Virus record (IMG/VR): IMGVR_UViG_3300048921_000341
Coordinates: 1 to 44,951 of that record
Source of the DNA: a virus
Length of the DNA: 44,951 bases
Strand: one strand, 5' to 3'
Part shown: positions 7,300 to 39,456 of the stretch, piece after piece
How positions within the stretch are numbered: position 1 is the first letter of the stretch
How the letters are laid out: every line of letters starts with the position of its first letter
The notes under the pieces: generated by a model
Database searches by the model: none
What the model saw: only the letters and a program-made list of their open reading frames with translations
Told to the model about the DNA's origin: nothing
Made by a program: the position numbers and the translations under genes

Positions 7300-8329
7300 C
7301 GCCGACGTTATCGCGCAGGCGATCGCGCACGTGTCCGGCGAGCTTCGCCGCTCGATCGAGGATTTGCGCGCCGACCACGCCGCCGAAATCGAGGCGCTAC
7401 GCCGCTCCGGCGCTGCCGCCCTGTCCGCTGCCCTAGCCGAGCAGGAAGCCCGCCACACGGCGCAGCTTGGCGCCCTCTCGGCCGCCCTGTCGGCGATCGG
7501 CGGCCCGGCCCTGTCCGGGCTCGTCGAGGCGAGGCTCGCCGATCCGGCCCTCCGGGAGCGCTACCGGGGCGAGCAGGGCGAGCCGGGGGCGCCCGGAGAG
7601 CCCGGGGAACCGGGCAAGGATGGCGAGCCGGGCACGCCAGGGGCGCCAGGGGCACCCGGGGCGCCCGGCGCCCCTGGCGAGCCTGGGAAGCCGGGCCTGA
7701 CGGGCGAAAAAGGCGAGAAGGGCGATCCGGGGGAGCCGGGCCCGCCCGGCGAGCCCGGGGAGCCCGGCCAGCCCGGCGAGAAGGGGGAGAAGGGCGATCG
7801 GGGATGGCCGGGCGCGCTGCCGATCCTCGAAGGCTGGACGGGCAGCCGCCTCTTCGAGCCCGGCGACTGCTGCGCGCACGGCGGCGCCATCTGGCAAGCC
7901 CTTTCCACGACCGATAGCGAGCCCGGCGGCGAGAAGTGGCAGCGCGTGCTGACGGGCTTCACCTTCCGGGGCCTCTGGGATGCCGCCGCCTGCTACCTGC
8001 CGGGCGATGCCGTCGCCTTCAACGGCTGCTCGTGGTTCGCGGCCTCCGCCTGCCAGGGCCAGGAGCCCGGCGAAGGCGACGTGTGGCGCCTGGGCGCGAA
8101 GGCCGGGCGTCCTGGCAAGCCGGGCGAGCCCGGCCGGCCTGGGGTGAAGGGCGACCCGGGCGAGCGCGGCCCCGCCGGCGTCGGTATCGAAGACATCACG
8201 CAAGCCGATGGCGGCTTCATCATCCGGCTGACGGATGGCACCGAGCGCGCCGTCGCGATCCCGCCGCCCCTTTCGCCGCCGCCGCCGGTAGCGCCGCCAC
8301 GCCGCCGCCGCAGGGCGGCTTCACCATGA
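7277..8329 (+). CDS. Collagen-like protein with carbohydrate-binding-type modules
   Basis: 350 residues. Residues about 10-75 form an alpha-helical, probably coiled-coil trimeriser. Residues 98-178 are 27 uninterrupted Gly-X-Y triplets ([12 protein letters not shown] types). Residues about 186-272 hold two repeats resembling CBM5/12 carbohydrate-binding folds ([15 protein letters not shown] and [17 protein letters not shown], each with a downstream W). Residues 277-303 are nine more Gly-X-Y triplets, then a short beta region and a Pro/Arg tail. It probably forms a trimeric stalk displaying sugar-binding heads. The portal overlap and head-gene neighbourhood suggest a head fibre rather than a tail fibre (inference). 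Start: ATG inside the portal 3' end. Confidence 0.85.
7568..7810 (+). repeat. Collagen Gly-X-Y coding repeat
   Basis: 243 nt of 9-nt-like GC-rich repeats encoding 27 Gly-X-Y triplets without interruption; a second tract of nine triplets lies at 8105-8185. Such tracts are prone to length change by slippage or recombination. Confidence 0.9.
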
Positions 8330-36565: not shown

Positions 36566-37066
36566 ATGTCATCCCTTCGCATCAACCACGCCCGACTTGT
36601 GCAGCGCATCGGCTCGTCGAGGCTCGCCTATGCCTTCGGCAAGTCGGAAGCGGCCATCGCCCATTGGAAGGTTCGCGGCATCCCGCCGTACCTTTGGGAG
36701 CACGTATGTGCGGTTGCGAACTCGCGCGGAATAGCCGTGACGGTTGCCGATCTGAGCGCCACTTCGCCCTTTGCTTACAACGCGCCCGCCGTTGACGAGG
36801 TGGTCGCGCGGGCTACGGCGTTCCAAGATCGGCCGGCCCCGATGCGCGCCCGGTTGCCCGAAGACGACGGCACGGCACAACCCGCAACGTGCGAAGGGAG
36901 CCCCATCGAATGGCCCGCAAAAATTCAGCAGCCGAGCCAGCATCGGACGCCGGAGCCGGCAACGGCAGCGCCGCCAACGGCAGCGGGCGCGGGAAGCGAG
37001 TCAAGGCGGAGCCGGGCCGGGGCGACAATTCAGCCGGCGACCTCGAAAGGTACGTTGAGCGCCTAG
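36566..37066 (+). CDS. Cro-like HTH regulator
   Basis: 166 residues. Residues about 8-52 match a Cro/YdaS-type HTH: LVQRIGSSRLAYAFGKSEAA, then IAHWKVRGIPPYLWEHVCAV. It sits at the divergent early promoter, where Cro-type repressors act, and is the only visible candidate to bind the ATTTACG sites. The last 50 residues are Pro/Ala/Ser-rich and overlap the next gene in another frame by 157 nt. Confidence 0.75.
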   Translation: MSSLRINHARLVQRIGSSRLAYAFGKSEAAIAHWKVRGIPPYLWEHVCAVANSRGIAVTVADLSATSPFAYNAPAVDEVVARATAFQDRPAPMRARLPEDDGTAQPATCEGSPIEWPAKIQQPSQHRTPEPATAAPPTAAGAGSESRRSRAGATIQPATSKGTLSA

Positions 37067-37335
37067 TCACCATCAAAGAGCGGATGGAGAGCGAGCGCGA
37101 GGCGTTCAACGCCGTGCTCGTCGAGGCGCAAGAGCGCGGCATGCACAAAGGCGCATTGCGCGCCATCGTGAAGCGCCGGCTTGAGAGCGACGAAGAGAAG
37201 GCCGCACGGATCGAGCTTGAGCAGAGCATGGACGATTACCTCGCCCGCCTCGGGATGCTCGCCGATACGCCGCTCGGGCGCGCGGCGGCCGAGCGCGACA
37301 TGGGTGATGCCCGCCTCGACGCGCCGCCGCTCTGA
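36910..37335 (+). CDS. GapR-like DNA-binding protein (DUF2312-like)
   Basis: 141 residues from ATG 36910, with GGGAG about 9 nt upstream. A disordered Gly/Ser/Ala N-terminal 45 residues precede a GapR-like helical domain: LERYVERLVTIKERMESERE, AFNAVLVEAQERGMHKGALR, AIVKRRLESDEEKAARIELE, MDDYLARLGML. GapR is an alphaproteobacterial nucleoid protein that tracks overtwisted DNA in front of replication. A phage copy next to replication genes may aid phage replication or mimic the host protein (inference). Confidence 0.75.
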   Translation: MARKNSAAEPASDAGAGNGSAANGSGRGKRVKAEPGRGDNSAGDLERYVERLVTIKERMESEREAFNAVLVEAQERGMHKGALRAIVKRRLESDEEKAARIELEQSMDDYLARLGMLADTPLGRAAAERDMGDARLDAPPL

Positions 37336-37344
37336 GCCTCAATC

Positions 37345-37818
37345 GTGTATCCGGGGCGCACTGCCGCGCGCGGGTTCCGCCTCACGGCGCCGCGCGTCGC
37401 GGAAGACGATTTTCATATCGAGGTGGCGAAGGTGCTCGGCCTCTTCGTCATGCCGCCGGCCGAGTGGACATGCTTCCCGGCCGGAAACGTCGAGCTTCCC
37501 GCGCACGCTGCGGCGAAGCTCTCGCGCATGGGCTTGCAGCGCGGATGGCCCGACTTCCTGCTCTCGCATAACGGGCTCTTCGGCCTCGAACTGAAGGCGG
37601 ATGGCGGCGGCCTGTCGCGAACGAAGGTGGTGCGGACCAAGCGCGGCACCCTCAAGCGGATCACCGGCCAGACGGAAATGTTCCAGCGCCTCCGCGCGAG
37701 TGGCGCTTGCGTCGCCGTGGCGCGCGACATGGATTCGGTGCTGCTGCAACTCAACGTCTGGGCGATCCCGCTCCGCAGCGGATGGCGCTCGGCCCTGACG
37801 TGCGAGGTGCAACCGTGA
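37345..37818 (+). CDS. VRR-NUC domain nuclease
   Basis: 157 residues from GTG 37345. The VRR-NUC signature is clear: RGWPDFLL (Asp70) and LFGLELKADGGGLS (Glu82, Lys84), with an upstream conserved Glu/His (DFHIEVAKVL). This domain is a PD-(D/E)XK fold found in phages and in FAN1-type nucleases, cutting branched or modified DNA, often encoded near phage replication genes. All three catalytic residues are present. The stop overlaps the next GTG. Confidence 0.87.
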   Translation: MYPGRTAARGFRLTAPRVAEDDFHIEVAKVLGLFVMPPAEWTCFPAGNVELPAHAAAKLSRMGLQRGWPDFLLSHNGLFGLELKADGGGLSRTKVVRTKRGTLKRITGQTEMFQRLRASGACVAVARDMDSVLLQLNVWAIPLRSGWRSALTCEVQP

Positions 37819-38666
37819 GCACGCATGACGCATGGCTGAAGTTCTACGTCGGGGATTATCTCGCTGACACGGGACACCTAACGACCGTTGAGCACGGAGC
37901 CTATGTGCTGCTGCTCTTCCACTCGTGGCGCACCGGCCCGTTGCCCGAGGATGCGCACAGGCTCGCCGCCATCGCACGCCTCCCGCGCGAGGCATGGCAG
38001 GAGGTATCTCCGACCATCCTTGCCTTCTTCACCCGCACCCCGAAGGGCTTGATTCAGAAGCGCTTAGAGGCAGTTCGTTCCGTCGAGGGACGCAAGATCG
38101 AGCAGCGCCGCGAGGCAGGGCGTGCCTCCGCAGCGCAGCGGAGCGCCAACGGGAAGGGCAACGGCGTGTCCAACGAAAATCCAACGACCGTTGAACGACC
38201 GTCCGAACGAAACGAGCAATCCCGTACCAGAGAGTCAGAGTCAGAGTCAGATAGAGAGAATCCACATGGGGCTACGCCCCCTGTGGATACGCGCGGACGC
38301 GCGACAGAGACACGAGCGGCGGCCCGAGCCCGGGGATGTCGATTGCCCGAGGAATGGGACCCGGGCGACAAGGGGCGCGCCTTCGCCCGCGAGAAGGGGC
38401 TCGATCCCGGCGCCACGCTCCAGATGTTCCGCGACTACTGGCGCGCCTCCGCCGCCCCCACGGCGCGGAAGATGGATTGGGACGCTGCATGGCGGGTGTG
38501 GTGCGGCAAGGCGCAGGGCTTCCCTGACGGCCGAGCGGCACCGCGCAGCACGCGCCGGCCGAGCGGCGCCTATGAGCTTTTCCGCGAAGAGGCGGGCGAC
38601 CTTCCCGCCGAAGAGACCGACGAGCTTTTCCCGATCGAAGAGGGGGCGCGAAATGGCCGGCACTGA
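37815..38666 (+). CDS. DUF1376 replication protein
   Basis: 283 residues from GTG 37815 (GTGA overlap). N-terminal DUF1376: DAWLKFYVGDYLADTGHLTT, VEHGAYVLLLFHSWRTGPLP, typical of phage replication initiators. Residues about 110-175 are a low-complexity linker (Ser/Glu/Asn/Arg) whose DNA carries the candidate origin (38172-38290). The C-terminal 100 residues resemble a primosomal domain (CRLPEEWDPGDKGRAFAREK, FRDYWRASAAPTARKMDWDA, WRVWCGKA). The arrangement recalls lambda O, in which ori lies inside the initiator gene. Confidence 0.85.
   Translation: MSTHDAWLKFYVGDYLADTGHLTTVEHGAYVLLLFHSWRTGPLPEDAHRLAAIARLPREAWQEVSPTILAFFTRTPKGLIQKRLEAVRSVEGRKIEQRREAGRASAAQRSANGKGNGVSNENPTTVERPSERNEQSRTRESESESDRENPHGATPPVDTRGRATETRAAARARGCRLPEEWDPGDKGRAFAREKGLDPGATLQMFRDYWRASAAPTARKMDWDAAWRVWCGKAQGFPDGRAAPRSTRRPSGAYELFREEAGDLPAEETDELFPIEEGARNGRH
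38172..38290. other. Candidate replication origin inside DUF1376 gene
   Basis: Contains AACGA at 38172, 38183, 38194, 38206 and 38211, with near-helical 11-12 bp spacing; the 12-mer AACGACCGTTGA at 38183-38194, also present at 37880-37891 in the same gene; tandem AGTCAG repeats at 38233-38250; and two DnaA-box-like sequences in inverted orientation, GAATCCACA (38258-38266) and TGTGGATAC (38282-38290), which also form a 7+5-bp hairpin. The region encodes a non-conserved-looking linker, so it can hold DNA signals. Function as an origin is inferred. Confidence 0.6.
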
Positions 38667-39456
38667 CTCGCGGATCGTCCGGCAATGGCTCAAGTCGCTC
38701 GGCGTCCTGACGGCGGGCAACATGGATGCGAACGAGCTTCGCACCCGCATCGAGACCATGGGCTCGCTGCTCGCCCGTGAGTATCCGGCCTGGGCCTTCA
38801 CGACGAGCAGCCTTGCGCATGTCGGCAGGGCGTGCCGCTTCTTCCCGACCTACGGCGAGGCATGCGACGCGCTCACGGCGTGGTGCAAGGAACACCGGCC
38901 GGCGAATGTCCGGCTGCTGACGAACGAGCAGCCGGAGAAGCCGGCCGAGGTGCGCGAAGCCGAAGAGATCGCGGCCGATCGCAAATGGTGGCTCGACCGC
39001 ATCGCGAGGCTTCGCGACATCCCGAACCTCACGGCGAGGTGGCGCGAGGCGTTCGGGATGAACGAAGTCCTCTCGCGCCCCGATGCCTATCCCCGCGAAT
39101 GGGCCATCGGCCCGCTCGCCGACATCATGGCCGAGTGCGAGTTCGCGGGGTGCGATCAGGACGTTTCACGCGTCTACCTGCCGATGATCATGCGGCCCCG
39201 CCGAGAGGTGGCGGAGGCGCGTCGCGGCCCCCGCACCGGCCGGCCGGTCCCGCTCTCCGGCGCCGCCCTCTACGCCTCGCGGAAAGCGATCGGCATGCCG
39301 GCCGAACTCGTCGAGGCCGCGCGGCCGAAGACCGACCGGGACGCGGAGGACATCCCGCCGGCCGATGACGACGACGACGCCCCGCCGACGGTCTCGCGCG
39401 AGGCGGAGGGGTATCGGGATTTCGTGGACAACCTGCCGAGCCGGCGGAGCGCGTGA
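38653..39456 (+). CDS. Hypothetical replication-region protein
   Basis: 267 residues from ATG 38653, with GAGGGGG ahead, overlapping the DUF1376 gene by 14 nt. Features: RIVRQWLKSLGVLTAGNMDA, TSSLAHVGRACRFFPTYGEA, KWWLDRIARLRDIPNLTARW; helical throughout, with an acidic Asp-rich C-terminal stretch. The position after DUF1376 is where helicase loaders or replication accessory proteins often lie, but no Walker motif is present, so it is not a DnaC-type ATPase. Function unknown. Confidence 0.7.
   Translation: MAGTDSRIVRQWLKSLGVLTAGNMDANELRTRIETMGSLLAREYPAWAFTTSSLAHVGRACRFFPTYGEACDALTAWCKEHRPANVRLLTNEQPEKPAEVREAEEIAADRKWWLDRIARLRDIPNLTARWREAFGMNEVLSRPDAYPREWAIGPLADIMAECEFAGCDQDVSRVYLPMIMRPRREVAEARRGPRTGRPVPLSGAALYASRKAIGMPAELVEAARPKTDRDAEDIPPADDDDDAPPTVSREAEGYRDFVDNLPSRRSA

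Follow-up and report, generated by a model that had tools for sequence, protein, structure and literature searches.

We propose that the repeats in the middle of a DUF1376 gene form the replication origin of the phage that carries it, placed, as in lambda O, within the gene of its own initiator and here in the part that encodes a disordered linker. We consider this reading highly likely, and the large DUF1376 family as a whole very probably initiates phage replication from within the genes that encode it. An earlier note on the same DNA had suggested an intragenic origin of the iteron type; comparison with many diverged relatives supports it strongly, through a common layout and a collapse of synonymous diversity over the repeats. 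DUF1376 is listed as a domain of unknown function, though hundreds of phages and prophages carry it. The comparison points to a likely function for it, that of an origin-binding initiator, places the candidate origin to within about 150 bp, and suggests a rule for locating phage origins from sequence.

The window, the whole sequence analyzed, comes from IMG/VR; this virus record is 44,951 bp long and has a GC content of about 66%. The features discussed below are listed in Table 1.

Table 1. Coordinates of the proposed origin and of the genes and domains around it (positions in the window)
Feature	Position	Strand	Basis
DUF1376 gene, putative replication initiator carrying the candidate origin	37815..38666	+	GTG start, 283 aa; PF07120, PHROG
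DUF1376 domain, putative iteron-binding domain	37833..38072	+	PF07120 match
Iteron cluster, (C)AACG half-sites	38147..38215	+	Spacing, density, family-wide 11-bp repetition 5' of the array
Tandem hexamer array AGAGTC x3.5, putative DNA-unwinding/helicase-entry element	38231..38253	+	TRF, lag-6 test
Stem-loop, loop TAC, outer stem with the DnaA-box-like 9-mers	38260..38288	+	Folding, 12/13 bp
C-terminal helical domain, putative helicase/loader-contacting part	38310..38513	+	Common to Acetobacter phage phiAX1 and actinobacteriophage initiators
Following gene, 267 aa, possible helicase-loader partner	38653..39456	+	N-terminal ~70 aa common to genes 3' of other DUF1376 genes

The gene and its repeats

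The product of the DUF1376 gene matches PF07120 in a Pfam scan (62 bits) and the PHROG annotation "primosomal protein" (5e-37), and a PHROG match to "replication initiation protein" spans its C-terminal half. AlphaFold2 predicts a confident N-terminal domain, a disordered stretch at about residues 118-175 and a helical C-terminal domain, and the repeats fall in the part of the gene that encodes this disordered linker. The model of the DUF1376 domain (pLDDT 92.8) is compact and helical, and a long helix follows its beta hairpin. Fold searches gave no significant solved-structure match for the full-length protein or its domain; many of the domain's matches near the top are winged-helix proteins (MarR, RuvB, CggR), all weak and none below E 0.001, and a winged-helix fold is suggestive but not significant.

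Half-sites of the form (C)AACG occur at 38147, 38159, 38171, 38182, 38194, 38206 and 38211. They are mostly 11-12 bp apart, about one helical turn, and thus lie on one face of the DNA; an inverted CGTTG at 38189 creates CAACG-AC-CGTTG within the cluster. The five AACGA copies reported earlier were all recovered (38172, 38183, 38194, 38206 and 38211, at spacings of 11, 11, 12 and 5), but 38172, although it does carry AACGA, is not the start of the series, since CAACG is found upstream at 38147 and 38159. Seven AACG within 120 nt make this the densest plus-strand cluster in 45 kb (the minus-strand maximum is 3), against a mean of 2.0 under synonymous resampling from the rest of the gene (p=0.001); permuting synonymous codons inside the segment gives p=0.03 for this count and p=0.0005 for the lag-11 run.

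The tandem hexamers, previously described as three AGTCAG units, were found by TRF as 3.5 perfect units of AGAGTC at 38231-38251 that continue into AGATA, and the lag-6 run exceeds both synonymous permutation (p=0.006) and codon resampling from the rest of the gene (p=0.016). They lie in an AT-rich tract adjoining the iterons: GC is 48% at 38217-38264, compared with about 66% overall, and the 51% at 38165-38264 is below 99.7% of the record's 100-mers. The hairpin that had been noticed here also holds, as ATCCACATGGGGC-TAC-GCCCCCTGTGGAT with 12 of 13 pairs; the DNA folding energy of the 51-nt stretch is -14.3 kcal/mol, with z=-4.7 relative to dinucleotide shuffles and z -2.4 relative to synonymous resampling.

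One proposed component did not survive. The earlier note had counted a 12-mer repeated at 37880 as part of the origin and had placed all repeats in the linker, which is true of the iterons, the array and the hairpin but not of this copy, which sits inside the DUF1376 domain and is not kept in relatives. As a distal iteron it was rejected: only 5 of 31 class members have AACG or CGTT there, and 4 matches within two mismatches were found where 2.8 are expected. The window holds 791 different 12-mers that are present at least twice, and the 37880 copy is, on the sequence comparison, a codon coincidence in the conserved motif LTTxEHGAY. The suggested check by cumulative GC skew was uninformative on origin position; the skew of the record is weak and has no turning point at the repeats.

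By analogy with lambda and iteron plasmids, we propose an order of binding, melting and helicase loading. The N-terminal DUF1376 domain would bind the AACG half-sites and wrap them; the AT-rich tandem hexamers beside them would melt as an unwinding element; and the C-terminal domain, probably together with the product of the next gene, would bring in the host DnaB helicase. The stem-loop adjoining the array might, more speculatively, help to hold the open complex or serve priming.

The same repeats might instead be an operator through which the DUF1376 protein regulates transcription of its own gene, with the true origin elsewhere. Helically phased half-sites and palindromes are typical of operators as well, but a site about 330 nt inside the gene, with an AT-rich tandem array and a stem-loop, suits an origin better, the proteins are classed by PHROG as replication proteins, and the rest of the 45-kb window showed no repeat cluster of this kind. 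We give an operator only a small chance.

Layout and selection across the family

The origin reading gains most from relatives. Viral contigs and phage records yielded 338 DUF1376 genes, which form 158 clusters at 85% domain identity, 155 of them usable. Close kin of the window were not found among these contigs and records, so the family, rather than immediate relatives, served for the test of synonymous conservation. The linkers of hundreds of distantly related phages are alike in layout and not in sequence: phased iterons, then a tandem array (usually of hexamers), often followed by a stem-loop. The iterons are of the CAACG type, the GCAAATGC type and others, and the array hexamers are almost arbitrary (TCACCT, ACACCC, ACAGAT, CAACCA, CCAGAA, CCTAAC and more). 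Under synonymous permutation within the linker of the 155 clusters, the mean best run is 7.4 against 4.6 at lag 11 (p about 1e-23) and 12.1 against 6.9 at lag 6 (p about 6e-26), while lags 5, 7, 8, 9, 10 and 13 stay near the null. The 11-bp signal peaks in the 60 nt immediately 5' of the array and, because 11 is not a multiple of 3, cannot be produced by protein repeats.

These repeats are conserved as DNA beyond the protein they encode. The two largest clusters (n=64 and n=35) are independent and have iterons of different types. Their synonymous codon diversity, 0.48 and 0.50 along the domain, drops to 0.07-0.2 across the iterons and to 0.00-0.11 across the array and then rises again, with values of 0.44 and 0.54 at the C-terminus. 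Conservation at synonymous sites had been put forward as a check on the origin, and the fall from about 0.5 to 0.0-0.2 coincides exactly with iterons plus array and shows selection on the DNA itself. Within the family, the repeats accompany the protein rather than being lost where it is kept.

The arrays are also distinct in composition. They are 15 points lower in GC and poor in G (9% on the coding strand against about 28-30%), and 77 of 106 have almost no G or almost no C, compared with 3% of random stretches from the same loci; the array of the window, unlike most, holds both. Since the array scoring was set after examples had been viewed, the family statistics are exploratory, whereas the test of synonymous diversity is independent of that scoring.

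A second alternative holds that the repeats are by-products of a low-complexity disordered linker, arising through dipeptide repeats and replication slippage, with no function as DNA. The arrays do encode dipeptide repeats (SE in the window; SP, TD, QP and PE elsewhere), the linker is predicted to be disordered, copy number varies between near relatives, and recent slippage would also reduce synonymous diversity inside the arrays. However, slippage could homogenize an array but not the iterons that precede it, and the iterons outside the array are equally conserved at synonymous sites; nor can the lag-11 repetition stem from the protein frame. Codon choice points the same way, with Ser codons ending in A in 133 of 155 cases within arrays and Thr codons in 95 of 115, against 273 of 1081 and 322 of 1499 outside, as do the 7- or 8-bp periods of some arrays in related initiators. 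Synonymous conservation largely refutes the slippage reading, which we regard as very improbable.

Stem-loops following the array are common, and free in sequence. Perfect stems of at least 7 bp occur within 90 nt 3' of the array in 31% of cases, compared with 1% and 0% in control stretches, and 45 different 5' arms were counted among 48 stems of at least 6 bp. The perfect-stem test does not single out the hairpin of the window, the mean folding energy after the array across the family (z -0.55) is the same as in other linker stretches, and an Rfam search gave only a chance-level snoRNA match. In seven loci (L009, L011, L014, L018, L021, L024 and L028), the structure consists of an outer stem that varies in sequence, a TC / TC internal loop and an inner xCTNCGx hairpin.

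The outer stem of the window's hairpin is essentially made of the two 9-mers that had been described as DnaA-box-like. One of them, TGTGGATAC at ~38281, is indeed a single mismatch from the box; the other is, by eye, two mismatches away. That host DnaA starts the origin through these inverted 9-mers has scant probability: TGTGGATAC is among only three sites in 45 kb within one mismatch of a DnaA box, and perfect boxes lie 3' of the array in a few relatives (L056, L075, L080), but boxes with at most one mismatch are not enriched in the linkers of 154 relatives (0.39 per kb against 0.43 per kb elsewhere), and the 9-mers are no more than the arms of a hairpin that is free to vary in sequence among relatives.

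On the domain tree, 17 changes of iteron type are counted, compared with 33.6 after shuffling, a difference explicable by common descent alone; among the DUF1376 residues listed, none significantly sets iteron type. Some array units are identical to telomere repeats (CCCTAA) or near the ciliate type (CCAAAA), in L018, L259, L261 and L264 and in L295 and L300, presumably through convergence on G-poor low-complexity hexamers. Finally, short DUF1376 genes of about 160 aa (L010:2986-3468, L099) keep iteron-like repeats but have no C-terminal domain.

Known origins, related initiators and neighboring genes

The lambda O gene carries iterons followed by an AT-rich tract in mid-gene, as in Stx-phage origins (PMC7466680, PMC5043065). 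In lambda O the N-terminal part, ahead of the origin, binds DNA and the C-terminal part, after it, binds partner proteins, as is proposed for the DUF1376 genes; however, lambda has four 18-bp iterons at lags of 20 and 23 and no tandem hexamers, whereas the DUF1376 phages have half-sites at 11-12 bp. Membership of the DUF1376 protein in the O family was rejected, as its Pfam scan gives only PF07120; a scan with lambda O returned near-identical copies only.

Iteron plasmids provide a second comparison. In RK2 oriV and F oriS, phased iterons stand beside AT-rich tandem repeats (13-mers in RK2, 8-mers in F), and a winged-helix initiator binds one strand of the tandem-repeat element (PMC4081077). 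The DUF1376 phages share the helically phased iterons adjoining an AT-rich tandem-repeat element, but their putative origin lies inside the initiator coding sequence, and their arrays are mostly built of 6-bp units that vary freely from phage to phage and mostly contain little G on the coding strand.

An active origin, oriJ, is known in the E. coli Rac prophage (PMC3945230). The ydaU gene of Rac is a DUF1376 gene whose linker carries AAAGAT-ACAGAT-AAAGAT hexamers followed by a C-run/G-run inverted repeat. It differs from the window in iteron type, and the N-terminal domains are about 40% identical. The likeness to oriJ is one of region, ydaU-ydaV; the portions of the literature available to us give no sequence-level position for oriJ in ydaU. 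Likewise, the openly accessible PubMed Central literature on DUF1376, ydaU and oriJ, in the portions available, contains no account of an origin in these genes. For Pseudomonas phage MD8, repeats within the O-like gp56 have been interpreted as an origin of the lambda kind (PMC8508860); the DUF1376 phage matches do not include MD8, and the available portion of that account includes no family-wide test, array or stem-loop.

The C-terminal domain extends beyond DUF1376, being common to mycobacteriophage and Gordonia phage initiators, and the N-terminal half is different in the mycobacteriophage initiator genes examined. Many among 33 distinct non-DUF1376 genes with this C-terminal domain have iterons and an array in the corresponding linker. 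In actinobacteriophages the array is often built of 8-bp units (GGGGAACA), a period that shifts the reading frame from one copy to the next and therefore rules out a repeat at the protein level; 7-bp periods also occur among related initiators. In L429-L441 (e.g., L436 and L438), which lack DUF1376, (GGGGAACA)n arrays follow TCGCGA-type iterons and lie 5' of the C-terminal domain.

It is evenly balanced, in our judgment, whether these cases represent a widespread architecture of tailed phages, in which phased iterons, a short array constrained in period and free in sequence, and often a stem-loop occupy the disordered linkers of initiators that otherwise have at most the C-terminal domain in common. 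On that view, the array would serve to unwind the DNA or admit the helicase, independently of its sequence and asymmetrically between the strands, a kind of element not described for lambda. An array that is periodic yet freely varying raises the question of how phage origins melt and load the helicase.

The gene that follows the DUF1376 gene falls in no Pfam or PHROG family, and tblastn gave no phage match for it. Its N-terminal ~70 aa (38653-38880) are 30-44% identical to those of genes downstream of other DUF1376 genes, an unnamed partner family. In several relatives, the genes in this position are annotated as DnaC, replication protein P or helicase loader, or DnaB; the next ORF has a Walker A motif in only 20 of 129 clusters.

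Upstream, the gene at 37345-37818 overlaps the start of the DUF1376 gene and has a GWPDF...ELK...Q pattern like that of VRR-NUC / Holliday-junction-resolvase nucleases, with weak family matches only. It is preceded at 36889-37335 by a GapR-like (DUF2312) protein under the Pfam cut-off; in L009, L010, L014 and L018, too, the DUF1376 gene has a DUF2312 or UPF0335 gene nearby. Far from this region, positions 7635-7817 contain GGCGAGCCC-type tandem repeats of 9/27/72 bp that resemble a collagen-like Gly-X-Y stretch.
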